A stretch of 64,000 bases of DNA from Rahnella victoriana (GTDB lineage: Bacteria; Pseudomonadota; Gammaproteobacteria; Enterobacterales; Enterobacteriaceae). Under the pieces are notes generated by a model, which was given only the letters and a program-made list of their open reading frames with translations, was not told where the DNA came from and did not search any database. The translations under genes were made by a program, and so were the position numbers. Where the stretch lies: positions 1 through 64,000 of the forward strand of contig NZ_SJOJ01000016.1 of the NCBI RefSeq assembly GCF_004330295.1, given 5' to 3'. Positions 36,278-55,093 of the stretch are shown piece by piece. The number at the start of each line of letters is the position of its first letter. Position 1 is the first letter of the stretch.

Positions 36278-36293
36278 TGTGATTTGCATCACA
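36278..36293. promoter_or_regulatory. CRP-cAMP binding site
   Basis: TGTGA-TTTGCA-TCACA is an exact CRP consensus with the outer bases also symmetrical (ATGTGAT...ATCACAT). It sits in the 413-base region between the divergent permease and dehydrogenase genes, closer to the permease. On the minus strand it is directly followed by CTGGCAT-GGTTC-CTGCTC (36257-36274), a sigma-54-like -24/-12 element with GG and GC conserved but two mismatches. The rest of the gap shows only a possible TATACT -10 at 36517-36522. Confidence 0.8.
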
Positions 36294-42642: not shown

Positions 42643-42993
42643 GTGAATAACGCAAGCGCATCTGTGAATGGGACCGGGCGGATTGAATTGAAAGATGCTG
42701 CGGCGATAACAGAGCAAGTATTAAAAGATATTCAGACAATGCAAAGTGCGAAGAATATCTACACCACCGATGTTCAGTTGCAGATGTTAACGTCACACGT
42801 TAAAGCCATGGTATTACGCTCGATTACCGGTGAGCCGTTGCCTGAAGTCGAAAAAGAGTTATTTGATGAAATCTCTGCCGACTCCATGCAAATGGCAGAG
42901 GACGTGGTGAGCTGGTTCGGGAATTTACCGATTGAGGAAGCGTATTTGCTCTCGGTACATTTTGAAGTGGCCAGAGACAACGAGCAGAAATAA
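42643..42993 (+). CDS. Stand-alone PRD-domain protein
   Basis: 116-residue soluble protein that appears to be a single PTS regulation domain without any DNA- or RNA-binding part. His52 in MLTSHVKAMVLRS and His106 in EEAYLLSVHFEVAR occupy the places of the two conserved PRD histidines that HPr or EIIB phosphorylates. It starts at a GTG with GAGGTAACC upstream. It is the first gene of the SFCGS/DUF4312/DUF4311/DUF4310 operon, and similar single-PRD proteins accompany that cluster elsewhere (E. coli YhfY is a comparable single-PRD protein). I infer it senses PTS phosphorylation state or modulates the transporter. No function has been shown to my knowledge. Confidence 0.8.
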   Translation: MNNASASVNGTGRIELKDAAAITEQVLKDIQTMQSAKNIYTTDVQLQMLTSHVKAMVLRSITGEPLPEVEKELFDEISADSMQMAEDVVSWFGNLPIEEAYLLSVHFEVARDNEQK

Positions 42994-43039
42994 TTTTTAT
43001 TGAAATTTTAATACATTAATTAATGTGGAGATGTGAATC

Positions 43040-43405
43040 ATGGGACAAGTATTAGTTGTGATCGGCGACCGTTTAGGTAAAGGCCAGAAAGTGGCAGCAG
43101 GCGTGGAAGCGGCTGGCGGAAAAGCCATTGTTGTCCCCGGTATGGCGGCAGACATGAAACTCGGCGACGTGATGAAAGCAGAAGGCGCGACCTTTGGTAT
43201 TTCTTTCTGCGGCAGTGGCGGTGCAGGTGCGATTACCGCACAAAACAAATACGGATATAAAGCGAAGTACGGGATGCGTTCAGTTGATGAAGGTGTCACG
43301 GCGATTAACGAAGGCTGTTTAGTATTAGGGTTCGGATTTATGGATAAAGAAGAACTGGGTCAGCGTCTGGTTGAAGCTTATAACAAGAAGTATGGTCAGG
43401 CGTAA
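43040..43405 (+). CDS. Glycine-rich SFCGS family protein
   Basis: 121-residue soluble protein of the Gly_rich_SFCGS family, function unknown. The N-terminus looks like an alpha/beta fold (GQVLVVIGDRLGKGQKVAAGVEAAGG). The family motif lies at residues 54-64, with Cys57 in ISFCGSGGAGA, at the end of a predicted strand followed by a glycine loop. That pattern (hydrophobic strand, Cys, Gly-rich loop) recalls the phospho-cysteine loop of PTS EIIB proteins, which would fit a phosphorylating transporter, but this is my inference. The stop codon overlaps the next gene's start by one base. Confidence 0.85.
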   Translation: MGQVLVVIGDRLGKGQKVAAGVEAAGGKAIVVPGMAADMKLGDVMKAEGATFGISFCGSGGAGAITAQNKYGYKAKYGMRSVDEGVTAINEGCLVLGFGFMDKEELGQRLVEAYNKKYGQA

Positions 43406-43704
43406 TGAAGCAACAATTAACCACAACAGTCCGGGTTGAAGGAAAGGGCGAAAATAAGGCTGCCGCCTTTTCTTCCGCACTGAGTCAGGTTCAGAGAACG
43501 GTTCTCAAATCGTCTGCTAATAATGTCTTGCTGCGCATTGAACCGCAGGACGTCAAGGTAATAAAGGCAGAGGAGTCGGTTAAAAGAGAAAAGTTTCTGT
43601 TCTTTTTTCTGGCCAGGGAAAGAAAGAGTTATTACGTGGCGTTAGACATTACCGTCAACCTGACTGTTATTAATACGGAACAGGTAGTTTTTGTCACGAA
43701 ATAA
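43405..43704 (+). CDS. DUF4312 family protein
   Basis: 99-residue soluble protein of unknown function. It is mostly beta strands and charged, with one hydrophobic patch (EKFLFFFLARERKSYYVALD). There is no signal peptide or membrane helix. It overlaps the SFCGS gene by one base and lies 32 bases before DUF4311, so it should be made together with both. Its constant placement between the SFCGS protein and the two membrane proteins suggests a cytoplasmic subunit of the same transporter. Nothing in the sequence shows a catalytic site. Confidence 0.82.
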   Translation: MKQQLTTTVRVEGKGENKAAAFSSALSQVQRTVLKSSANNVLLRIEPQDVKVIKAEESVKREKFLFFFLARERKSYYVALDITVNLTVINTEQVVFVTK

Positions 43705-43736
43705 AAACGTTAGCTATAAATGACAAGGATATACTG

Positions 43737-44513
43737 ATGTTTTTAATTATTTTATTTAAGTCGCTTATTATCGGCGGACTGGTTGGGGTGGGCGTAGGTG
43801 CGGGTGCCGCACGTATGTTCCATGCGCCAACCGTGCAAGGAATGGGGGCTTTTCGTACGCTTGGGGAATTAAACTCCTGTGAAGGCGATCCGGCTTCGCA
43901 TTTCTCATTCGGTCTGGGCTTCTTCTTTAACGCCTGGGCATCTTCCGTGGCGGCAGGTTCTTTCACTCAGGACGTTGACCACCGCATCATTCCTCACTGG
44001 GCCACCGCTGCCCTGATGTTCAAAAACCGCAATGTCACTGAAACCCTGCACGACCCGCGCAAGATGGCGATTGCGGGCGGCATCATCGGCATGATTGTGG
44101 TGGCCTTCCTCAACACCACCGCGTCTGCCGTGCCTGCGGCGTTGCAGGTCACGGCCATTAAAGTGCTGGTGCCTGCGGCTAACCTGCTGGTGAACACCGT
44201 CATGCCGGTGATTTTCTGGCTGGCGGCGATCGATGCAGGACGTCGTTCCGGTTTCTGGGCCACCATTTTTGGCGGTCTGGCGCAGATGATCATGGGGAAC
44301 GCCGTGCCGGGTCTGGTACTGGGTATCCTGATCGGTAAAGGCGTCGAAGAGAGCGGCTGGAACCACGTCACCAAAGTGATGATGGCGGCGATTATCGCGC
44401 TGTTCGTTCTCAGCGGTTTCTTCCGTGGTTTCGACGTCAAGCTGTTGCAATCCTTCATGCTGGACGTCCCGACATGGCTGAACGGCATTCACAACTCACT
44501 CAGCGGTAAGTAA
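43737..44513 (+). CDS. DUF4311 family membrane protein, putative transporter subunit
   Basis: 258-residue inner-membrane protein with about six hydrophobic segments. The N-terminal helix (FLIILFKSLIIGGLVGVGVG) is followed by a conserved polar and aromatic stretch, LGELNSCEGDPASHFSFGLGFFFN, that could line a substrate site. Gly-rich helices follow (GGIIGMIVVAFLN, MPVIFWLAAIDAGRRSGFWATIFGGLAQMIMGNAVPG). The start has an AAGGA ribosome-binding site. Paired with DUF4310 it probably forms a two-polypeptide membrane channel, like the split EIIC/EIID or glucitol EII proteins. Substrate unknown. Confidence 0.85.
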   Translation: MFLIILFKSLIIGGLVGVGVGAGAARMFHAPTVQGMGAFRTLGELNSCEGDPASHFSFGLGFFFNAWASSVAAGSFTQDVDHRIIPHWATAALMFKNRNVTETLHDPRKMAIAGGIIGMIVVAFLNTTASAVPAALQVTAIKVLVPAANLLVNTVMPVIFWLAAIDAGRRSGFWATIFGGLAQMIMGNAVPGLVLGILIGKGVEESGWNHVTKVMMAAIIALFVLSGFFRGFDVKLLQSFMLDVPTWLNGIHNSLSGK

Positions 44514-44520
44514 GGGGAAC

Positions 44521-45174
44521 ATGACAATGGAAGAACAAGCCAAACGTGGTTTCTGGTACGCCGAGTGGTCGTTCCCGATTTTTGTCGGACTGCTGTCTTC
44601 CGGCGTTTTCGCCGGGACACACATGTATTACCTGTACGGCATCGGTGCATTTAACGAAGTGGCCTTTGTGTCGATGCTGCGTTCCGGCATGGATACCGGC
44701 GTGTACGGCGCAGTGGCGGCCTTTGGTGCCAGCTTCCTGTTTGCCCGCATCATCGAAGGTTCGCTGGTCGGTATTCTCGATATCGGCGGCGCGATCCAGA
44801 CCGGTATCGGCCTGGGCGTTCCTGCAATGCTGCTGGGCGCCGGGATTATCTTCCCGGTGGCGAACTTTGCCGCCTCGCTGGTGACCGGCCTGATCCTCGG
44901 GTTAGCCGTCGGTTACATCATCATTCTGGCGCGTAAATTCACCATCAATCAGAGCAACTCCACCTACGGCGCTGACGTGATGATGGGCGCGGGTAATGCC
45001 TCCGGCCGCTTCCTCGGGCCGTTGATTATCCTCTCCGCAATGGCCGCATCGATTCCAATCGGTCTTGGCTCGCTGATTGGCGCACTGGGTTTCTATCTGT
45101 GGCAGAAGCCGATTACCGGTGGTGCCATTCTCGGTGCGATGGTGCTGGGCGCCATCTTCCCGGTTTCACTGTAA
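44521..45174 (+). CDS. DUF4310 family membrane protein, putative transporter subunit
   Basis: 217-residue inner-membrane protein with about six Gly/Ala-rich helices. Among them are FPIFVGLLSSGVFAGTHMYYLYG, GSLVGILDIGGAIQTGIGLGVPAMLLGAGIIF and the C-terminal GGAILGAMVLGAIFPVSL. A polar loop (RKFTINQSNSTYGADVMMGAGNASGRFLGP) is conserved-looking. The first ATG at 44521 has GGGGAAC before it; an ATG at 44527 is an alternative. It begins seven bases after DUF4311, so a two-subunit complex is likely. A 12-bp hairpin follows before the metabolic genes. Confidence 0.85.
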   Translation: MTMEEQAKRGFWYAEWSFPIFVGLLSSGVFAGTHMYYLYGIGAFNEVAFVSMLRSGMDTGVYGAVAAFGASFLFARIIEGSLVGILDIGGAIQTGIGLGVPAMLLGAGIIFPVANFAASLVTGLILGLAVGYIIILARKFTINQSNSTYGADVMMGAGNASGRFLGPLIILSAMAASIPIGLGSLIGALGFYLWQKPITGGAILGAMVLGAIFPVSL

Positions 45175-45196
45175 GAAGCAGTACATAAGCAGTAAA

Positions 45197-45224
45197 CGGG
45201 CGTCAGGAACACTCCTGACGCCCG
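45197..45224 (+). other. 12-bp perfect stem-loop between transporter and enzyme genes
   Basis: CGGGCGTCAGGA pairs with TCCTGACGCCCG around ACAC. There is no U-tract, and the next gene's ribosome-binding site (TGGAGAA) follows at once. It probably protects the upstream mRNA or reduces read-through, so that transporter and enzyme levels differ. Confidence 0.65.
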
Positions 45225-45243
45225 AGATTATGGAGAACGTCGT

Positions 45244-46377
45244 ATGTATGACTTAATCATCCGCCAGGCATTACGCGCAGACGGCAGCCTGACTGATATT
45301 GCAATTCGCGACGGCAAATTCGCCGCCATTGGCACGCTGGCTTCCGATGCCACCGCCCGCCAGACCCTCGATCTTCAGGGCAAGGTTTACGCCAGCGCAG
45401 GCTGGATCGACTCCCATGTTCACTGTTATCCCAAATCGCCGATTTATCATGACGATGCTGACCTGATTGGCGTCGCCTGCGGTGTCACCACCGTGGCGGA
45501 TGCCGGCAGCACCGGTGCCAATGATGTCGACGATTTTTATCAGCTCACCCGTGCGGCGAAAACCAACGTTTACGCGTTTCTGAATATCGCGCGTACCGGC
45601 ATTGTCACGCAGAACGAACTGGCGGACATGACGCAGATCGACAAGGTCGGCGTGCGTGACGCCATCGCGCGAAATCCCGGTTTTATTATCGGTATCAAGG
45701 CGCGGATGAGCAGCAGCGTGGTCGGCCAGAACGGCATCAAACCGCTGGTGCGCGCCAAAGAAATTCAGCACGAAAACAACGACCTGCCGCTGATGGTGCA
45801 TATCGGCAATAATCCGCCGAACCTCGATGAAATCGCGGATTTACTGACCTCCGGCGACATTATTACTCACTGCTATAACGGTAAACCGAACCGCATTCTT
45901 TCGCCGGAAGGCGTGCTGCGCGATGCCATCAAACGTGCGCTGAGCCGCGGCGTGTTGCTGGATGTCGGTCACGGCACCGCGAGTTTTAGCTTCGACGTGG
46001 CGGAACGGGCGATTAAGCAGGGCATTTTGCCGCACACCATCAGCTCCGATATTTATTGCCGCAACCGCATGAACGGGCCGGTGCACAGCCTGGCGACCGT
46101 GATGTCGAAATTCTTCAGCGTCGGCATGACCCTGCCGCAGGTGATTGACTGCGTCACCTCGCACGCCGCCGACGCGCTGCGCCTGCCTGCCAAAGGCCGT
46201 CTGGAAGTCGGTGCTGACGCCGACCTGACCCTGTTTGAATGCCGTCAGACGCCGCAGGTGTTTGTCGATTCCGAAGGACAGTCCGTGAAGGGCGAAAGTT
46301 TGCTGGTGCCTCTGGCCGCTGTGGTCGCGGGCGTCACCCTGTTAACCGAAGAAGGGAAATCTGCTCATGTCTTCTGA
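45244..46377 (+). CDS. Dihydroorotase-like amidohydrolase/deacetylase
   Basis: Metal-dependent hydrolase of the amidohydrolase superfamily (COG3964 type), 377 residues, cytoplasmic. The metal site can be read from the sequence: His58 and His60 in DSHVH, Lys152 (probably carboxylated) in GIKARMS, His186, His209 and the catalytic Asp269 in SSDIYC. Family members tested elsewhere cleave N-acetyl or ester groups from small acids, so a deacylase role is likely. It overlaps the lyase gene by 11 bases. Here it probably removes an N-acyl group from an amino-sugar acid, possibly phosphorylated, before the lyase acts. Confidence 0.85.
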   Translation: MYDLIIRQALRADGSLTDIAIRDGKFAAIGTLASDATARQTLDLQGKVYASAGWIDSHVHCYPKSPIYHDDADLIGVACGVTTVADAGSTGANDVDDFYQLTRAAKTNVYAFLNIARTGIVTQNELADMTQIDKVGVRDAIARNPGFIIGIKARMSSSVVGQNGIKPLVRAKEIQHENNDLPLMVHIGNNPPNLDEIADLLTSGDIITHCYNGKPNRILSPEGVLRDAIKRALSRGVLLDVGHGTASFSFDVAERAIKQGILPHTISSDIYCRNRMNGPVHSLATVMSKFFSVGMTLPQVIDCVTSHAADALRLPAKGRLEVGADADLTLFECRQTPQVFVDSEGQSVKGESLLVPLAAVVAGVTLLTEEGKSAHVF

Positions 46378-47494
46378 ACACTCTTTATATGAAAAATATG
46401 ATTTAAAACAGGTTATTAACGCCTCAGGTCGCATGACGGCGCTGGGTGTGTCCACGCCGCGTGAAGAAGTGGCGGCAGTGGTGAATACCGGCCTGAATCA
46501 TTACTTCGAGATGAAAGATCTGGTGAACAAAACCGGCGCTTATATCGCGAAACTGCTTAACGTCGAAAATGCCGTGGTGGTGTCCTGCGCCTCTGCCGGG
46601 ATCGCGCAGTCCGTTGCGGCGGTGATCGTCAAAGATGACGCCTGGCTGCTGGAAAACCTGCACGCTGCGCCGCTGGAGATCCCGCACGATATCGTGCTGC
46701 CAAAAGGCCATAACGTGAACTTCGGCGCGCCGGTCGCCACCATGGTCACGATGGGCGGCGGCAAAGTGGTGGAAGCCGGTTACGCCAACGAATGTTCTGC
46801 CGCGCAACTCGCCGCCTGCATCACGCCGCGTACGGCCGCCATTCTGTACATCAAATCGCATCACAGCGTGCAGAAAAGTATTTTGTCGGTGGCCGAAGCC
46901 GCAGAAGTGGCGCGTGCGCATAACCTGCCGCTGATTGTTGATGCCGCCGCAGAAGAAGATCTGACCTGCTATTACGAGATGGGCGCGGATCTGGTGATTT
47001 ACAGCGGCGCAAAAGCCATCGAAGGGCCGACCAGCGGTCTGGTGCTCGGCAAGAAACAGTACGTTGAATGGGTAAAACTGCAATCCGGCGGCATTGGCCG
47101 TGCGATGAAAGTCGGCAAGGAAGGCATTCTCGGCCTGACGCAGGCGATCGAAAGCTATCTCACTTTGCCGAAAACCACCGGGCAGGAAATGGTCGACAAG
47201 ATGACGCCATTCATCGCCAGCCTGAATGAGATCAACGGCGTGACCGGTCGTGTGGTCTGGGACAGTGCCGGACGCGATATTGCCCGCACGGAAATTACTT
47301 TCGATGAAGCGGTGCTCGGCTGGAAAACCAAAGACATTGTGGATGCCATGAAGAACGGCGATATCGCCATTTACTTCCGTGGCTACCGCGCCAACGAAGG
47401 CAAGATTGAAGTCGATGTGCGCAGCGTGACGCCGCCGCAGCTCGCCATCGTCGCACAACGTTTTAAACACCTTTTCAGCGGAGATAAAGCATGA
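46367..47494 (+). CDS. DgaE-family PLP-dependent ammonia-lyase
   Basis: Fold-type I PLP enzyme of the SelA/DgaE group, 375 residues. The PLP lysine is Lys216 in VIYSGAKAIEGPTSG; DAAAEEDL upstream provides the ring-binding acid. In Salmonella, DgaE converts D-glucosaminate-6-phosphate to 2-keto-3-deoxy-6-phosphogluconate plus ammonia. The neighbouring KDGP aldolase here makes an equivalent alpha,beta-elimination on a 2-amino-aldonate phosphate the best guess. It overlaps both neighbours, by 11 and four bases, so the three enzymes are coupled. Confidence 0.85.
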   Translation: MSSEHSLYEKYDLKQVINASGRMTALGVSTPREEVAAVVNTGLNHYFEMKDLVNKTGAYIAKLLNVENAVVVSCASAGIAQSVAAVIVKDDAWLLENLHAAPLEIPHDIVLPKGHNVNFGAPVATMVTMGGGKVVEAGYANECSAAQLAACITPRTAAILYIKSHHSVQKSILSVAEAAEVARAHNLPLIVDAAAEEDLTCYYEMGADLVIYSGAKAIEGPTSGLVLGKKQYVEWVKLQSGGIGRAMKVGKEGILGLTQAIESYLTLPKTTGQEMVDKMTPFIASLNEINGVTGRVVWDSAGRDIARTEITFDEAVLGWKTKDIVDAMKNGDIAIYFRGYRANEGKIEVDVRSVTPPQLAIVAQRFKHLFSGDKA

Positions 47495-48231
47495 AGCTGA
47501 CCCCGAATTTCTACCGTGACCGCGTGTGCCTGAATGTGCTGGCCGGTTCTAAAGACAATGCCCGTGACATTTACGCCGCCGCAGAGGGCCACGTGCTGGT
47601 CGGCGTGCTGTCGAAAAATTACGCCGATGTGACGAGCGCGGTCGCGGACATGAAGGAATACGCGGCGCTGATTGAAAACGCCTTGTCCGTCGGCTTAGGC
47701 GCGGGCGATCCGCGGCAGTCGCTGATGGTCAGCCAGATTTCTGCACAGGTTCAGCCGCAGCACGTCAATCAGGTGTTTACCGGCGTCGGCACCAGCCGTG
47801 CGCTGCTCGGGCAAAACGACAGCGTGGTCAACGGTCTGATTTCTCCGACCGGCAAAGTGGGCTTTGTGAAGATCAATACCGGGCCGCTGAGTTCTGCGGC
47901 CAGCGATGCGATTGTGCCGGTGGAAACGGCGATTGCGCTGCTGAAAGACATGGGCGGCAGCTCGGTGAAATATTTCCCGATGGGCGGCCTGAAAACCCGT
48001 GACGAATTCGCCGCCGTGGCGCGTGCCTGTGCGGAGCAGGATTTCTGGCTGGAGCCAACCGGCGGAATCGATCTGGAAAACTTTGAGCCGATTATGGAAA
48101 TCGCGCTGGCGGCAGGTGTCACCAAAATCATCCCGCATATCTACAGTTCGATTATCGACAGCGCGTCGGGCAACACCCGTCCTGACGATGTGAGAACGCT
48201 GCTGGCCAGTGTTAAAAAACTGGTGGGCTGA
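47491..48231 (+). CDS. KDGP aldolase family protein (DgaF-like)
   Basis: 246-residue aldolase of the DgaF/KDGP family, expected to split 2-keto-3-deoxy-6-phosphogluconate (or an epimer) into pyruvate and glyceraldehyde-3-phosphate. Lys160 in SVKYFPMGGL lies in a KxFP context like the Schiff-base lysine of KDPG aldolases. The C-terminal block LEPTGGIDLENF resembles the phosphate-binding part of those enzymes. The start overlaps the lyase stop by four bases (ATGA). A terminator-like hairpin follows. Confidence 0.86.
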   Translation: MKLTPNFYRDRVCLNVLAGSKDNARDIYAAAEGHVLVGVLSKNYADVTSAVADMKEYAALIENALSVGLGAGDPRQSLMVSQISAQVQPQHVNQVFTGVGTSRALLGQNDSVVNGLISPTGKVGFVKINTGPLSSAASDAIVPVETAIALLKDMGGSSVKYFPMGGLKTRDEFAAVARACAEQDFWLEPTGGIDLENFEPIMEIALAAGVTKIIPHIYSSIIDSASGNTRPDDVRTLLASVKKLVG

Positions 48232-48276
48232 AGGTTCTGACCTTTCCTGCGCGGTAAGCCGTCTGCGCGGTTAAAC

Positions 48277-48312
48277 ACTCTGCATCCCTCAACCTTCGGG
48301 CGGATGCAGAGT
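48277..48312 (+). terminator. Terminator-like hairpin after the aldolase gene
   Basis: ACTCTGCATCC pairs perfectly with GGATGCAGAGT across a 14-base loop, then TATCTTGTTTGTC. The T-content is moderate, so termination may be partial, leaving the lactonase and regulator less expressed. Confidence 0.65.
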
Positions 48313-48353
48313 TATCTTGTTTGTCTGACAGCCCCCAAATTTTGAGGAAATGT

Positions 48354-49562
48354 ATGAGAAACTGGTTTCTGATTTCAGGTTTAACCTCCGCGATGCTGGC
48401 CGTGACCGCCGCGCCGCTTTATGCAGCAGAAAAAACAATGACCTCCACGACTCCGCAGTTTGCTTACGTCGGCACCTACAACCCGAACGGGGAAGGTGTC
48501 TACCGCTTTAAATTCGATCCGAAAACCGGCGCACTGAGCGATAAAACCCTCGCCAGCCAGTTGCCCAATCAGGCGCAGATGGTGCTCAGCCACGACGGCA
48601 AAACGCTGTTCATCGGCAGTGAAACTGATGATTACAACGGCGGCAAACACGGTGCCGTGGCCGCTTACCGTATTGCGCCGGAAGACGGCAGCCTGACGCT
48701 GATCAATCAGGTGGATTCGCAGGGCGCAGGGCCGGTGTATTTGTCGCTGACGCCAAAAGGCGACCATCTGCTGGTGGCGAATTATATCAGCGGCGTGGTG
48801 GCGGTATTCCCGGTGGATGCCAGCGGAAAACTGAGTGAGGCCAGCAACAGCCAGCAGGATTCCGGGCCGGCGGGCGCAGGTAAACCGGCGGCGGCGGCAG
48901 AAGGCAGCTTTGCCATCAGCGACCATAACGGGCCGCACGCTCACATGATCGCCACCGATCCTTCCGGTAAATTCGTGTTCTCCACGGATCTCGGTCTGGA
49001 CAGGATTTATCAGTGGAAACTCAACAGCGAAACCGGCGTGCTGGAAGCCAACGATCCGCCGTTTATCAACGCGTCTTCAGAAGGTGCAGGGCCGCGCCAT
49101 TTTGTGTTTCATCCGAACGGCAAAGTGGTTTTCCTGATCAACGAGGAAGCCTCGACGCTGACCAGTTATCGCCTTGATGCGGCAAAAGGCACGCTGACGC
49201 AACTGCACAGCCTTTCATCGCTGCCGGCCGGTTTCAAAGGCACTAACTTTGCCGCAGGCATTGTGCTGAGCAGGGACGGCAAACATCTGTATGTGGCGAA
49301 CCGTCTGCATAACAGCATTGCGCAGATCAACGTGACCGGCGAAGGCACGATGACCTGGCACGATGACGTCTGGACGCGCGGCGACTACCCGCGCACGCTG
49401 ACATTGTCACCGGATGGCAAATATATTTACGCAATGAATCAACGAAGCGATAACATCACCCGATTCAAGGTATCTGCTGAAAACGGCACACTGACGTTCG
49501 TCGATGGCTATGTTGCGGTCGGCAGTCCGTCGCAAATGGTGATCGCGCCGTCGCCGGAATAA
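48354..49562 (+). CDS. Exported beta-propeller lactonase (6-phosphogluconolactonase-like)
   Basis: 402-residue seven-bladed propeller of the YbhE/lactonase family with an N-terminal signal peptide (MRNWFLISGLTSAMLAVTAAPLYA), which places it in the periplasm. Cytoplasmic Pgl has no such signal, so a role in the pentose phosphate pathway is unlikely. The blades repeat [33 protein letters not shown] and DGKYIYAMN motifs, and the conserved NGPHAHM and GAGPRHFVFHPNGK blocks are present. The ATG at 48354 has TTGAGGA upstream; 11 upstream codons were rejected. It may open an aldonolactone to the acid that the adjacent transporter takes up. Confidence 0.88.
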   Translation: MRNWFLISGLTSAMLAVTAAPLYAAEKTMTSTTPQFAYVGTYNPNGEGVYRFKFDPKTGALSDKTLASQLPNQAQMVLSHDGKTLFIGSETDDYNGGKHGAVAAYRIAPEDGSLTLINQVDSQGAGPVYLSLTPKGDHLLVANYISGVVAVFPVDASGKLSEASNSQQDSGPAGAGKPAAAAEGSFAISDHNGPHAHMIATDPSGKFVFSTDLGLDRIYQWKLNSETGVLEANDPPFINASSEGAGPRHFVFHPNGKVVFLINEEASTLTSYRLDAAKGTLTQLHSLSSLPAGFKGTNFAAGIVLSRDGKHLYVANRLHNSIAQINVTGEGTMTWHDDVWTRGDYPRTLTLSPDGKYIYAMNQRSDNITRFKVSAENGTLTFVDGYVAVGSPSQMVIAPSPE

Positions 49563-49574
49563 TATGGAAAAACA

Positions 49575-51494
49575 ATGGTGAGATTTCCCAATCAACGGCT
49601 GGCGCAATTGTTTGATGCGCTGCAAACCGAAACGCTGCCTCAGGATGAACTGGCGAAACGTCTGTCCGTCTCGACGCGGACGGTGCGTGCAGACATCACG
49701 GCGCTGAATGAAATCATCGCAGACTATGGCGCGACGTTCGTACACAGCCGTGGCAGCGGTTATCAGTTGCGGATTGACGATCACACCTTGTTCTCCTCAT
49801 TACAGCAGCCGGTGCAGCGTAAACCGAACCCGACGCCGCGCACGGCGGCTGAGCGGGTAAAGACGTTGCTGATCCGCTTTCTGACCTCGGCCTTTTCTTT
49901 GAAGCTGGAAGATCTGGCCGATGAATGGTTTGTCAGCCGGGGCACGCTGCAAAATGATATGGCCGACGTACGCGAGCATCTGGCGCGTTATCACCTGAAT
50001 ATCGAAACCAAACCGCGCTATGGCATGAAGTTGTTTGGCGCGGAGCTGGCGATCCGCGCCTGTCTGACCGATCTCTTGTTCCAGCTTGATGCCGAGGAGC
50101 AGGCCAATCCGCTGCTGAAAGCGGAAAGTCTGGAACCTGAGGCGCTGGTGCCGCTGACGCGCTTTATGCATCAGCTGCTGGCGCAGTCTGCCATTCAGCT
50201 GACCGACGAAGGCGAGCAGTATTTAATTCTGTATTGCGCGGTGGCGATCAAGCGTATTACCGGCGGTTATCCGCTGACGGATTTCGATGCCGAAGACGGC
50301 GATCCGGCGGTGAAGCAGGTGTCCGTGCGTCTGGCGGCGGAACTGAAAAATCTGGTGGGTAAGGAAATCCCGGCCTCCGAAGAAGCCTATCTGCGGGTCA
50401 ATATCGCCGCCCGCCGGGTGCAGCAGATTTTGCCGACGGATATTAACGCCGACGATGACGAGTCGCTGGTCGATTACATTCTCTCGTATATCAATTCGCA
50501 CTATAACTATGATTTGCAGGGCGATAAGCAGCTGCGCGCCGACCTGCTGACCCACATCAAGACCATGATTACGCGGGTGAAATACCAGATTAATATCCCC
50601 AATCCGCTGCTGAACAACATCAAACAGCATTACCCGATGGCGTATGACGTTACGCTGGCGGCGGTGTCGAGCTGGGGGAAATACACGCCGTACACCCTGA
50701 GCGAAAACGAGATCGGTTTTCTGGTGCTGCATATCGGCGTCGGACTGGAGCGGCATTACAACATCGGCTATCAGCGCCATCCGCAGGTGATGCTGGTGTG
50801 CGATACCGGTAATTCGACCATCCGCATGATCCAGGCGCAGATTAACCGTAAGTATCCGCAACTGGTGATGAAGCAGATTGTGACGCTGCGCGATTACGAG
50901 CAACTGGAACATATCGACGAAGATTTTATTATTTCTAACGCCCGCATCAGCGAGAAGAACAAGCCGGTAGTGGTGTTGTCGCCTTTCCCGACGGAATACC
51001 AGATGGAACAGCTCGGCAAGCTGGTGCTGGTCGACCGCACGCGGCCTTATATGCTGGAAAAATTCTTCGACGAAAAACACTTTATGATCGTCAACCAGCC
51101 GATGACGCAGGCGGAGTTATTCCGCCATGTGTGCTCACAGCTGGAAGAAGAAGGCTACGTCGATCAGGCGTTTTACCCGTCAGTGGTCGAGCGCGAAGAG
51201 ATTGTCTCCACCATGCTCGGCGAAGGCATTGCGCTGCCGCACTCGCTGGGGTTGCTGGCGAAGAAAACCGTGGTGATCACCTTGCTTTCGCCGCAGGGCA
51301 TTGCGTGGGGAGAAGGGGAAACCGCGCACGTGATTTTCCTGCTGGCGATCAGCAAGGCAGATTATGAAGAGGCGATGGCGATTTACGATTTGTTCGTGAC
51401 GTTTGTGCGGGAACGCTCAATGAGCCGTTTGCTGAGCAGTGAGAACTTTGAAAGCTTTAAGGCCATTGCTATCGACTGTTTAAGCCGTATTTAG
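49575..51494 (+). CDS. PTS-controlled transcriptional regulator (HTH-PRD-PRD-EIIB-EIIA)
   Basis: 639-residue regulator of the MtlR/ManR type (often annotated as BglG-family antiterminator). An HTH_11 domain lies at about 5-65 (AKRLSVSTRTVRADITALNE), a second HTH at about 95-160, PRD1 at about 185-290 and PRD2 at about 300-400. An EIIB-like domain follows (about 403-490, Cys409 in VCDTGNST), then an EIIA domain of the fructose/mannitol type (about 505-639, His556 in GIALPHS). PRD2 keeps both histidines (His327, His386). In PRD1 the two sites read Cys221 and Asn276. With DNA-binding HTH domains it should act at a promoter and not on RNA. It probably controls the upstream operon. Confidence 0.9.
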   Translation: MVRFPNQRLAQLFDALQTETLPQDELAKRLSVSTRTVRADITALNEIIADYGATFVHSRGSGYQLRIDDHTLFSSLQQPVQRKPNPTPRTAAERVKTLLIRFLTSAFSLKLEDLADEWFVSRGTLQNDMADVREHLARYHLNIETKPRYGMKLFGAELAIRACLTDLLFQLDAEEQANPLLKAESLEPEALVPLTRFMHQLLAQSAIQLTDEGEQYLILYCAVAIKRITGGYPLTDFDAEDGDPAVKQVSVRLAAELKNLVGKEIPASEEAYLRVNIAARRVQQILPTDINADDDESLVDYILSYINSHYNYDLQGDKQLRADLLTHIKTMITRVKYQINIPNPLLNNIKQHYPMAYDVTLAAVSSWGKYTPYTLSENEIGFLVLHIGVGLERHYNIGYQRHPQVMLVCDTGNSTIRMIQAQINRKYPQLVMKQIVTLRDYEQLEHIDEDFIISNARISEKNKPVVVLSPFPTEYQMEQLGKLVLVDRTRPYMLEKFFDEKHFMIVNQPMTQAELFRHVCSQLEEEGYVDQAFYPSVVEREEIVSTMLGEGIALPHSLGLLAKKTVVITLLSPQGIAWGEGETAHVIFLLAISKADYEEAMAIYDLFVTFVRERSMSRLLSSENFESFKAIAIDCLSRI

Positions 51495-51580: not shown

Positions 51581-51853
51581 TTAGTCTTCGTCAAATCCTG
51601 AATTGATCAGATTTACCACTGCCGTCAGTGCCTGTTCTTCGTCGGGGCCGGTGGCCTCGATTTCAATCTGCTGACCTTTCGGCGAATCGAGCATCAGCAG
51701 CGCAATCACGCTGCTGGCTTCTGCTTCAATGCCTGTGCCGTTGCGCAGCATCACTTCTGATTCAAAGCTCTGCACCAGTTCAAACAACTTCATCGCCGGA
51801 CGGGCATGCATGCCTAACCGGTTTTTGATTTCTACCGTTTGTTTCACCGTCAT
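51581..51853 (-). CDS. ptsO: NPr, HPr-like phosphocarrier of the nitrogen PTS
   Basis: 90-residue phosphocarrier that relays phosphate from EI-Ntr (PtsP) to PtsN. The active site is His16 in RLGMHARPA, and the HPr fold is complete ([30 protein letters not shown]). In the nitrogen PTS the chain ends at PtsN and controls potassium transport and envelope stress rather than sugar uptake. It overlaps rapZ by four bases as the last gene of the rpoN operon. E. coli carries yrbL downstream; here the PTS-regulated locus begins instead. Confidence 0.96.
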
Positions 51854-52701
51854 TTGCGTTTTTCCAGCGTGCGATGGCGGGACTGAACATTCTTCCCACG
51901 GGAACGGAAATAGTCGGCCAGTTGTTCTGCGATATACACCGAACGGTGTTTACCGCCGGTACAGCCAATGGCGACGGTCAGATAGCTGCGGTTGTTGGTT
52001 TCCAGCATCGGCAGCCATTGTTCGAGATAGCTTCGGGTCTGGTAGATAAAGTTGTGTACTTCGGTATGACGGTCAAGGAACGCCGCCACCGGCTTATCAA
52101 GGCCGGTCATCGGACGCAGTTTCGGATCCCAGTGCGGGTTCGGCAGGAAACGCACGTCGAAGACGTAATCCGCATCAATCGGAATGCCGTGTTTGAAACC
52201 GAAGGACTCGAACACCATCGTCAGTTCGCGCTCGCGTTTCCCCAGCAGGCGGGTACGCAGCATTTCTGCCAGCTCATGTACGGACATTTCGGAGGTGTCG
52301 ATGATCAGATCCGCCGACGAACGCAGCGGTTCGAGCAGATCGGCTTCTTCATCAATGGCACTTTCGAGGGATAAATTTTTGCTGGAAAGCGGGTGCAGAC
52401 GACGCGTGTCGCTGTAGCGGCGGATCAGGGTATTGCGGTCAGCATCAAGGAACAACAGCTGCGGTGAGAAGCTCTCCGGCAGTTGTGACATCGCATGCTC
52501 ATAAACTTCCGGTGTTTCTGGCATGTTACGGACGTCAATGCTGACGGCCGCAGACGTATTGCGTTCAACAAGGGTCTGGGCGAGCTGCGGCAGTAACACC
52601 ACCGGCAGGTTGTCCACACAGTAAAAACCCATGTCTTCGAGTGCCCTCAGGGCAACCGACTTCCCGGAACCGGAACGGCCGCTGACAATCATCAGCACCA
52701 T
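51850..52701 (-). CDS. rapZ: RapZ, RNase adapter protein and GlmZ regulator
   Basis: 283-residue adaptor that delivers the sRNA GlmZ to RNase E and senses glucosamine-6-phosphate, thereby tuning GlmS. The N-terminal P-loop is at residues 8-15 (GRSGSGKS). The C-terminal domain carries the conserved [17 protein letters not shown] and the basic RNA-binding tail [10 protein letters not shown]. The start at 52701 ([11 protein letters not shown]) has GGGGAG upstream; a longer 11-codon form was rejected. It is translationally coupled to ptsO. Confidence 0.97.
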
Positions 52702-52767
52702 GGTGTCACTCCCCTGGCATTCAGTGTTCAGCATTCATTTTCCCGGCACGAAAACCGGGATCAGACG

Positions 52768-53238
52768 CTATTCGTTTTCAGTCATTATCTGGAACAGTTC
52801 TTCGTCGCTTTGCGCTCCGCGCAGACGGCGACACACTGTTTTATCAGCCAATTTCTTAGCAACTAACGATAAGGTGTGTAAGTGGGTTTTACATTGATCT
52901 GCCGGAACCAGCAAGGCAAAAAGTAAATCTACCGGCTGATTATCGATGGCGTCAAAAGCGATCGGCTGTTCCAGCTGAATGAACACCCCGACGGCACGTA
53001 AAGTATCTTCTTCCAGCTTTCCGTGCGGGATGGCGATCCCGGCACCGATCCCGGTGCTGCCCATACGTTCACGGGTCAAAATGGCGTCGAAAATCACCTG
53101 TGGCGATAAATTTAATTGCTTAGCGGCCAGTTCGCTGATGATTTCCAGTGCGCGTTTCTTGCTGGCGCAATGAACGCCACTTTTGGTGCATTCGGCATTG
53201 AGCACCGACGTTAATTGCATTGCAGTATCGTTAATCAT
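52768..53238 (-). CDS. ptsN: PtsN, EIIA-Ntr
   Basis: Terminal phosphoacceptor of the nitrogen PTS, 156 residues, with regulatory rather than transport roles (TrkA, KdpD, RapZ-linked networks). His72 in GIAIPHGKLEEDTLRAVGVF is the phosphorylated residue. The ATG at 53238 (MINDTAMQL) aligns with the E. coli start; an in-frame GTG four codons upstream is an alternative. It lies between hpf and rapZ in the conserved rpoN operon. Confidence 0.96.
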   Translation of the reverse strand: MINDTAMQLTSVLNAECTKSGVHCASKKRALEIISELAAKQLNLSPQVIFDAILTRERMGSTGIGAGIAIPHGKLEEDTLRAVGVFIQLEQPIAFDAIDNQPVDLLFALLVPADQCKTHLHTLSLVAKKLADKTVCRRLRGAQSDEELFQIMTENE

Positions 53239-53348
53239 GTCATCTTTCACTTTTGCGCTGTTTCACCCTTAAAGCTATATCGGCTCGTTTCCCGAAGGTC
53301 ACAAGCCGATGCCCGAAGGTTTGTAGCACAGGGTTGGCTACATGAATG

Positions 53349-53636
53349 TCAGTGCTGTTTCAGTTTGTCTTTATGTTTATTCAGCTGGCGGGCCAGTTTA
53401 TCAACCAGTCCGTCAATCGCTGCGTACATATCCTGATGTTCCGAGGTGGCATGTAATTCGCCTCCATTCACATGCAAAGTCGCTTCCGCAACTTTTTGCA
53501 CCTTTTCCACGCTCAACACCACATACACCTGATTAATCCTGTCGAAATACTGCTCGAGCTTGGCCAGCTTCGACGTGATGAATTCTCTCAGGGGATCCGT
53601 GATCTCAATGTGATGTCCGGTAATGTTGAGCTGCAT
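53349..53636 (-). CDS. hpf: HPF, ribosome hibernation promoting factor
   Basis: 95-residue short-type HPF that binds the 30S decoding region and promotes 100S dimers in stationary phase, together with RMF. MQLNITGHHIEITDPLREFI and the C-terminal YAAIDGLVDKLARQLNKHKDKLKQH match E. coli nearly throughout. The ATG at 53636 has a strong AAGGAAG; nine upstream codons were rejected. It follows rpoN by 23 bases. Confidence 0.97.
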   Translation of the reverse strand: MQLNITGHHIEITDPLREFITSKLAKLEQYFDRINQVYVVLSVEKVQKVAEATLHVNGGELHATSEHQDMYAAIDGLVDKLARQLNKHKDKLKQH

Positions 53637-53659
53637 AATGTCTTCCTTCTCTGTTGAGG

Positions 53660-55093
53660 TCAAACTAACTGTTTACGTTGGTTTGAGGGCGGGATGGACA
53701 AAGACTCTCGGTATTTGGCGACGGTCCGTCGTGCGACCATGATCCCCTGATCGGAAAGCAGGGTCGCTAACTTACTGTCGCTGAGCGGTTTTACAGGATT
53801 CTCCGCTGCGATTAATTTCTTCACCAGCGCCCGGATGGCGGTTGACGATGCCTCGCCGCCGCTGTCTGTACTGACATGGCTGGAGAAGAAATACTTCAGT
53901 TCGAAAATGCCACGCGGACTGTGCAGGAACTTCTGCGTCGTCACACGTGAAATTGTCGATTCGTGCATTTCTACGGCACTGGCGATATCGGCCAGCACCA
54001 TAGGTTTCATAAATTCTTCACCCAGTTCAAAGAACGCCTGCTGCTGCTCAACGATGCAGCGCGTCACTTTTAACAGCGTGTCGTTACGGCTTTCCAGACT
54101 TTTGATTAACCACTTGGCTTCCTGCAGATTGCTGCGGATAAACTGGCCGTCGCTGTCGCTGCGTGCGGAATTGCCCATTGCGGCGTACTGCTGGTTAATC
54201 TTCAGTCGCGGAATGCTGTCGGAATTCAGTTCGACCGTCCAGACACCTGACACTTTACGCACCAGCACATCCGGGATCACGTATTCGGATTCACCGGTAT
54301 TGATCGACTGGCCCGGACGCGGATCAAGAGACTGGATCAGGAGCATCGCTCCTTTCAGTGTATCTTCTTTTAACCGGGTTGATCGCATAAGTGCACGGAA
54401 ATCATGGTTCGCCAGCAAATCGAGATGTTCGCTGATGATCAGACGGGCTTCGGTGATAAACGGGGTGTCAGTAACATATTGAGAAAGCTGGATCAGCAGA
54501 CAGTCGCGCAGATCACGCGCCGCCACGCCCACCGGGTCAAAGCGTTGAACGCGCTTAAGCACGGCTTCAACTTCGTCCATGGTGATGTTTTCGTCACCCA
54601 CGCTTTCAAGAATATCTTCAAGGGAAACGGTGAGGTAACCGGTGTCATCCACCGCATCGACGATGGAGGTGGCAATCGCGGCATCGGTATCGGAAAACGG
54701 CGTCAGTTCCACCTGCCACATCAGGTAATCCTGCAGGGTCTGGGTGGTTTCGCCCTGGTAAATCGGCAATTCGTCGTCGCTGTAATCATTGCCGGTACCG
54801 GACGGCGTGCCTGCGGTGTAAATCTCATCCCAGGTCGCATCCAGCGGCAGCTCTTCGGGCATGTCTTTTTGCTCGAGGGCTTCGCGGGTATCTAATCCTT
54901 CGTTGTCGGTGGCTTCCACCGCATCGATTTCATCATGAAGGTCGGTTTGTTCCAGCAGAGGGTTGCTCTCCAGCGCGAGTTGGATCTCCTGCTGGAGCTC
55001 GAGCGTGGACAATTGCAACAGGCGGATGGCCTGTTGTAACTGAGGAGTCATTGCCAGTTGTTGGCTGAGTCTGAGTTGCAAACCTTGCTTCAT
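53660..55093 (-). CDS. rpoN: RpoN, sigma-54
   Basis: Alternative sigma factor for nitrogen assimilation and other enhancer-dependent genes, 477 residues as in E. coli. Region I is Gln/Leu-rich ([25 protein letters not shown]), followed by an acidic region II, the core-binding region and the DNA-binding C-terminus. The RpoN box [10 protein letters not shown] is at residues 454-463. The yhdWXYZ promoter at 4515-4532 in this window is a likely target. It lies 101 bases after lptB with a hairpin between. Confidence 0.98.

Follow-up and report, generated by a model that had tools for sequence, protein, structure and literature searches.

A conserved Rahnella gene cluster proposed to import and degrade an N-acylated amino-sugar acid

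We analysed a 64,000 bp stretch of the Rahnella victoriana contig NZ_SJOJ01000016.1 (positions 1 to 64,000; assembly GCF_004330295.1), here called the window. Positions 42643-51494 hold ten co-directional plus-strand genes that overlap or are separated by short gaps. An earlier note on this DNA had proposed that they specify an undescribed route, linked to the phosphoenolpyruvate (PEP)-dependent phosphotransferase system (PTS), for the uptake and breakdown of an acylated amino-sugar acid. NCBIfam and Pfam assignments agree with its description of the ten genes, each of which carries a confident family assignment (bit scores are followed by the model cut-off):

42643 to 42993, plus strand: single-PRD protein, EF_0829 family (TIGR03582, 131 bits, cut-off 69)
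43040 to 43405, plus strand: SFCGS protein (TIGR03577, 219 bits, cut-off 141; PF14272)
43405 to 43704, plus strand: DUF4312 small protein (TIGR03578, 124 bits, cut-off 90; PF14189)
43737 to 44513, plus strand: DUF4311 membrane protein, candidate permease subunit (TIGR03580, 498 bits, cut-off 301; PF14188; hydropathy)
44521 to 45174, plus strand: DUF4310 membrane protein, candidate permease subunit (TIGR03579, 390 bits, cut-off 215; PF14187; hydropathy)
45244 to 46377, plus strand: putative deacylase of the amidohydrolase superfamily, EF_0837 family (TIGR03583, 553 bits, cut-off 432)
46367 to 47494, plus strand: pyridoxal phosphate (PLP) ammonia-lyase, DgaE family (TIGR01437, 585 bits, cut-off 385)
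47491 to 48231, plus strand: DgaF/KDPG aldolase (TIGR03581, 399 bits, cut-off 222; DgaF equivalog NF047796, 386 bits, cut-off 300)
48354 to 49562, plus strand: exported seven-bladed beta-propeller lactonase, accessory (PF10282)
49575 to 51494, plus strand: transcriptional regulator, HTH-Mga-PRD-PRD-EIIB-like-EIIA (Pfam HTH_11, Mga, PRD and EIIA_2; the EIIB-like part is a reading of the sequence)

The cluster corresponds to the NCBIfam families EF_0829-EF_0839 and AHA_3910-3917, whose models NCBIfam classes as hypothetical equivalogs and links to no pathway. The AHA_ tags presumably stand for Aeromonas hydrophila, which would place the cluster in Aeromonas. It is thus on record in NCBIfam as a set of conserved hypothetical families, with no function assigned there. 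The Enterococcus faecalis aldolases EF0839 and EF2975 have been suggested to serve amino or other sugars (PMC7701990), and one promoter, that of EF0839 or EF2975, was detected as urine-activated (PMC2912369). Beyond these hints, a search of open-access full text, which leaves out supplements and most subscription journals, gave no fuller account of the function. The word undescribed consequently holds for such an account, and not for the families or for the aldolase suggestion.

Conservation was assessed in the best 80 of 494 relatives, nearly all from Enterobacterales; the sampling of Bacillota was confined to a single E. faecalis record. Conservation counts take in close relatives as well as L099, a copy of the window, and so do not represent independent events. 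The closest named loci are from Rahnella species, with 98-99% identity in DUF4311. A core of eight genes, from the PRD protein to the aldolase, is complete in 79 of the 80 loci, with order and strand identical in 79/79 and a largest gap between core genes of 279 bases. The sole exception (L073) is cut by a contig end, and the regulator is present in 78/80. Among 197 genomes sampled at the level of the order, the window's own included, DUF4310 and the deacylase exceeded their model cut-offs in an identical set of 20 genomes (20/197 each), and the aldolase and SFCGS did so in 19 of those 20 (19/197 each). The genome with no aldolase or SFCGS match, G448, is fragmentary (75% complete), and its cluster contig begins inside DUF4311 and stops within the aldolase gene. 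The eight core genes were found in 13 of 15 further loci, the remaining two being those of G448 and of G459, a 2.4-Mb genome that keeps a decayed cluster (L113:8272-12200), at least two of its genes being interrupted by stops; DUF4311 and DUF4312 were not found in this remnant. The neighbourhood survey of DUF4310, DUF4311, DUF4312 and SFCGS that the earlier note had called for thus found one unit, and neither the loci nor the 197 genomes included clusters that regularly lack the lyase and aldolase.

The cluster is also found in Klebsiella, in E. faecalis and on a Bartonella plasmid. The core genes follow one another in the same order in Enterobacterales and Bartonella; the Enterococcus version shares this order but has three inserted genes and the regulator gene in front. 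The cluster is hence far more than a chance assembly. Its spread is patchy: DUF4310 was detected in 24 of 59 relatives and in 12 of the 398 genomes of a phylum sample, all 12 from the window's family, and the E. coli genome collection gave no blastn match to the DUF4310 gene. We conclude that the cluster behaves as one heritable functional unit.

Residue conservation was examined in alignments limited to sequences of 0.8 to 1.2 times the length of the window protein. In the lyase, the PLP lysine K216 and H166, the second His of the HH pair, are identical in 98/98 sequences, and H165 in 97/98 (Ala in Bartonella). A manual docking model of D-glucosaminate-6-phosphate lyase (DGL) has the phosphate held by Arg301, Arg332 and Arg346 and the carboxylate by Arg226, with His163 as proton donor (PMC9529869). 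When the cluster lyase was aligned to structure 7lc0, the three phosphate-site arginines matched R307, R338 and R352, all identical in 98/98, while His163 matched H166 and Arg226 matched K229. As all three arginines are kept, the substrate of the lyase is probably phosphorylated, and phosphorylation would precede deamination. We regard this match as the best evidence for a 6-phosphorylated D-2-amino-aldonate as the substrate of the lyase. The enzyme had been called DgaE-like, and this stands at the level of the family; against the DgaE equivalog model it reaches only 353 bits (cut-off 600), compared with 711 bits for the lyase of a classical dga operon (L128, in genome G014). It is therefore a sister enzyme and not DgaE itself.

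Published gene lists name the lyase family selA, selenium transferase or selenocompound metabolism (PMC9015054, PMC7701990, PMC11135667), and members of the deacylase family appear in the PDB under the names dihydroorotase or adenine deaminase. A role in SelA-like selenium metabolism, or a dihydroorotase or adenine deaminase activity, is nonetheless highly improbable. The lyase scores 585 bits with TIGR01437 and 50 bits with SelA, its structure match to DGL (2e-82) far exceeds those to SelA structures (1.4e-7), and the partner genes encode an aldolase and a deacylase. The selA and selenium transferase names in these lists appear to be a label error.

In the deacylase, H58, H60, K152, H186, H209 and D269 are identical in 118/118 sequences, and this HxH, Lys, His, His, Asp set, which we take to be metal ligands by the pattern of the amidohydrolase superfamily, is present as the earlier note had stated, as is the PLP lysine of the lyase. 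The PDB relatives of the deacylase are 8wzy, 2ics and 2ogj, the last two presumably EF_0837 and Atu3266. Ornelas reportedly found in 2013 that Atu3266 cleaves acetyl esters of R-hydroxy acids and has weak activity on N-acetyl-D-serine, a compound that corresponds to the first three carbons of N-acetyl-D-glucosaminate. By analogy, the cluster deacylase may act on N-acyl or O-acyl D/R-2-substituted acids. It would do so before deamination, because the amino group has to be free for a DgaE-type lyase to act. The lyase family itself is said, in the title of a 2018 paper by Phillips, to act on a D-configured 2-substituted acid.

Assignment of the third enzyme to the DgaF/KDPG family is strong at the sequence level, and its nearest solved relatives are the putative KDPG aldolases PDB 3lm7, 3m0z and 3nzr. 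The aldolase of E. faecalis IDRL-9065 (L102:15738-16490) matches as two separate open stretches and is absent from the gene table of the record, which suggests a break or a sequencing error. The lactonase open reading frame (ORF) is listed from TTG 48321; ATG 48354, which gives an ordinary-looking signal peptide, is more likely to be the start. Its nearest PDB entry is 6igb, a periplasmic gluconolactonase. The lactonase is found in only 37/80 loci (38 at a looser threshold, in 33 of which it lies directly 3' of the aldolase). Lactone opening had been put forward as the first step of the route; the lactonase is instead optional and accessory, and not part of the core.

The classical dga operon of G014 (L128:5433-9833) includes mannose-type EIIA-B-C-D, DgaE and DgaF, and the cluster is also present in this genome, so that both routes coexist. 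In L128 a true PTS permease occupies the place where the cluster has PRD, SFCGS, DUF4312, DUF4311 and DUF4310, and this equivalent position is the reason for assigning an uptake role to the last four. No deacylase match was found within the 18 kb examined around the dga operon in L128, and the lyases and aldolases of the two systems are 38.5% and 47.1% identical, respectively. The Salmonella dga operon, reportedly described by Miller in 2013, is said to take up D-glucosaminate via a mannose-type PTS. Like it, the cluster combines a DgaE-family lyase followed by a DgaF aldolase with PTS-linked uptake and conserved 6-phosphate-site arginines. It differs in having four uncharacterised families in place of EIIA-B-C-D, and in adding a deacylase and an optional lactonase. 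As had been noted, these four families contain no recognisable PTS permease domain.

A connection to the PTS, also claimed earlier, is supported by the PRD/EIIA regulator and by the Bartonella copy, which is followed by a gene for a 671-residue HPr-EI fusion (HPr 9-86, EI 116-666). This fusion points more clearly than any other observation to a need for phosphoryl flow from PEP. The Bartonella locus (L103, 40803-55674) is on a 55.7-kb plasmid of Bartonella sp. HY406 from bat faeces, and carries the core, the regulator, the HPr-EI fusion and the type VI secretion genes tssA and tssM. H52 and H106 of the single-PRD protein are identical in 97/97 sequences. In the regulator, H327 and H386 are found in 95/95, the EIIA residue H556 in 94/95 and the EIIB-like C409 in 85/95. 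The EIIA histidine is replaced by Gln in E. faecalis, so that, leaving the regulator aside, the stand-alone PRD protein with its invariant histidines is the candidate phosphate carrier that varies least. Among the membrane proteins, H29, H55, H82 and H105 of DUF4311 are each present in 119/119 sequences and H34 of DUF4310 in 118/118; the predicted DUF4311 model that was compared with the mannose-type EIIC/EIID fold has a pLDDT of only 58.

SFCGS is predicted to have an RpiB/LacAB-like fold with the active-site Cys kept, which we report here for the first time. Its Cys57 is invariant, and 25 of 34 members match PF02502 weakly (best E 0.0012, short of the Pfam gathering score), with PF02502 not among the listed matches of the window protein. 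In RpiB, His99 is the ring-opening residue and C-terminal arginines bind phosphate. While SFCGS shares the predicted fold and the Cys loop with the RpiB/LacAB isomerases, it is shorter; sequence alignment puts an Asn of the window protein opposite His99 and shows no counterpart of the C-terminal extension.

On balance we favour a reading in which the cluster directs PTS-coupled import and breakdown of an N-acylated 2-amino-2-deoxy-D-aldonate, most likely N-acetyl-D-glucosaminate (GlcNAc1A). Where present, the lactonase would open a sugar lactone in the periplasm. SFCGS, DUF4312, DUF4311 and DUF4310 would make the permease, the stand-alone PRD protein would be its PTS phosphate sensor or carrier, and the substrate would enter as the 6-phosphate or soon become so. 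The EF_0837-type amidohydrolase would take off the acyl group, as the chemistry of its family suggests, and the lyase, judged by its aligned residues, would convert the 6-phospho-D-2-amino acid to 2-keto-3-deoxygluconate-6-phosphate and ammonia. DgaF would then yield pyruvate and glyceraldehyde-3-phosphate, and the PRD/EIIA regulator would switch the operon via PTS phosphorylation. We consider it likely that the enzymes act in this order on a 6-phospho amino-aldonate, and only slightly less so that the four families constitute the permease. That this permease itself phosphorylates the substrate falls just short of an even chance. Import had been proposed as perhaps coupled to phosphorylation; the arginines of the lyase now place phosphorylation ahead of deamination, and the phosphorylating step itself is still deduced indirectly.

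Several observations weigh against this reading. None of SFCGS, DUF4312, DUF4311 and DUF4310 gave a PTS family match at E values up to 0.1, and SFCGS resembles RpiB and is not evidently an EIIB. The EIIA histidine is lost in E. faecalis, a PfkB-type kinase gene lies downstream of the cluster there, and the Bartonella HPr-EI fusion could serve the regulator or the PRD protein only. The lyase falls below the DgaE equivalog cut-off, and its K229, at the position of the DGL carboxylate arginine, is Lys in 59/98 sequences and Arg in 39/98. As for a link to chitin, LPMO_10, a family of lytic polysaccharide monooxygenases (LPMOs), occurs in 7/20 cluster-bearing genomes and 41/177 others, a difference that is not significant (p = 0.27), and is without a match in the genome that the window comes from.

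The same catabolism could instead rely on non-phosphorylating uptake. DUF4310 and DUF4311 would then form a conventional transporter, such as an ion-coupled one, and SFCGS, derived from RpiB, would serve as a binding or isomerase-like subunit; an unlinked kinase would add the phosphate, and the PTS would act only in regulation via the PRD proteins. The missing EII domains, the RpiB fold and the PfkB-type sugar kinase all fit, as does the carriage of GlcNAc1A in Pseudoalteromonas by a non-PTS sodium symporter (PMC9537276). Yet the lyase keeps its phosphate arginines while the core has no room for a kinase between its genes in the 79 loci (kinases were considered only within the core), an HPr-EI fusion accompanies the Bartonella cluster, and Cys57 of SFCGS is invariant though other isomerase residues are unmatched. 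We regard uptake of this kind as possible, though on the unlikely side.

GlcNAc1A, the oxidised end unit of chitin, is the natural acid whose features fit. It is proposed as the substrate because both enzyme families, that of the lyase and that of the deacylase, reportedly use D-configured 2-substituted acids, and what the earlier note offered as a guess is now a reasoned one; as an exact identification it remains tentative, and we would not put it quite at even. In Pseudoalteromonas, GlcNAc1A is deacetylated, deaminated and phosphorylated only afterwards (PMC9537276). The ong pathway of Pseudoalteromonas prydzensis shares this proposed substrate, the deacetylation and deamination steps and 2-keto-3-deoxygluconate-6-phosphate with the cluster, but uses a PLP enzyme resembling D-amino-acid deaminases, a sodium symporter and phosphorylation by KdgK after deamination (PMC9537276, PMC12017989). 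Its deacetylase OngB has a Cys/His/His subtype V metal site (PMC12017989) in place of the invariant set of the cluster deacylase. In two Aeromonas species LPMOs were found and close OngB and OngC relatives were not, other deacetylases and deaminases being left open (PMC11653859). A scavenger need not make its own LPMO; the link to chitin is not proven, and the stereoisomer or the acyl group may be a different one.

The E. faecalis cluster adds genes for a lactose/cellobiose-type EIIC, a 99-residue protein with no family assignment and a MupG-family protein, in addition to the downstream PfkB-type kinase. This would fit import of an oxidised disaccharide and its cleavage to GlcNAc-6-phosphate and GlcNAc1A, with phosphorylation of GlcNAc1A to follow. 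A GH170 (MupG-type) enzyme is genetically required for chitobiose use in L. paracasei, and the founder of the MupG family splits a muramyl disaccharide phosphate (PMC12791066). The MupG-family gene and the lack of LPMO coupling would equally suit another acylated acid, such as a stereoisomer (galactosaminate or mannosaminate), an amino-acyl or lactyl conjugate, or a muramate-derived cell-wall acid. The aldolase, above its KDPG cut-off, and the conserved lyase site favour the gluco series, without fixing configuration or acyl group for certain, and we judge a different acid to be somewhat improbable.

A module of related make-up was found in E. coli K-12, in which yhfT, yhfU and yhfY (L122:2033-7423) show a gene mix that parallels that of the cluster. 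The genes for YhfY (a PRD protein), YhfU (an RpiB-like Cys protein, DUF2620) and YhfT (a membrane protein) were together in 3/3 clusters examined. This set, newly reported here, looks like a sister module of the cluster's uptake genes. It differs in that YhfY lacks the second PRD histidine and the yhf enzymes are not those of the cluster; comparison of the cluster's membrane proteins with YhfT gave no significant hhalign match, with shallow profiles and YhfT as a single sequence. A further step would be to see PRD-SFCGS-DUF4312-DUF4311-DUF4310 as a previously unrecognised class of PTS-energised permease, with PRD standing for EIIA, SFCGS for EIIB and a two-subunit pore for EIIC/EIID, and yhfY-yhfU-yhfT as a second branch. 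Phosphate would sit on the invariant histidines of the PRD protein, phosphate or substrate on Cys57 of SFCGS, and the membrane pore would be new. We consider this unlikely as matters stand.

The Rahnella cluster adjoins npr-rapZ-ptsN-hpf-rpoN (51581-55093, by ORF reading), whereas the Klebsiella copy (L104) lies between cybC and nrdG; the placement in Rahnella is probably a coincidence. Outside the cluster, a perfect CRP-type palindrome is found at 36278-36293, with a permease gene on one side and an aldehyde dehydrogenase gene on the other (both named by ORF reading).

Taken together, the earlier interpretation was largely right and is now sharper, though supported only in part. If correct, it would give a function to seven NCBIfam hypothetical families, including DUF4310, DUF4311, DUF4312 and SFCGS, that occur in Klebsiella, Serratia, Pantoea, Yersinia, Enterococcus and others. 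Rahnella is a soil and plant bacterium, and the route would match, on land and in association with hosts, the one by which oxidised chitin is used in the sea. Should the uptake module prove to be PTS-driven, it would represent a new permease class and provide a concrete handle on the uncharacterised yhf genes of E. coli.

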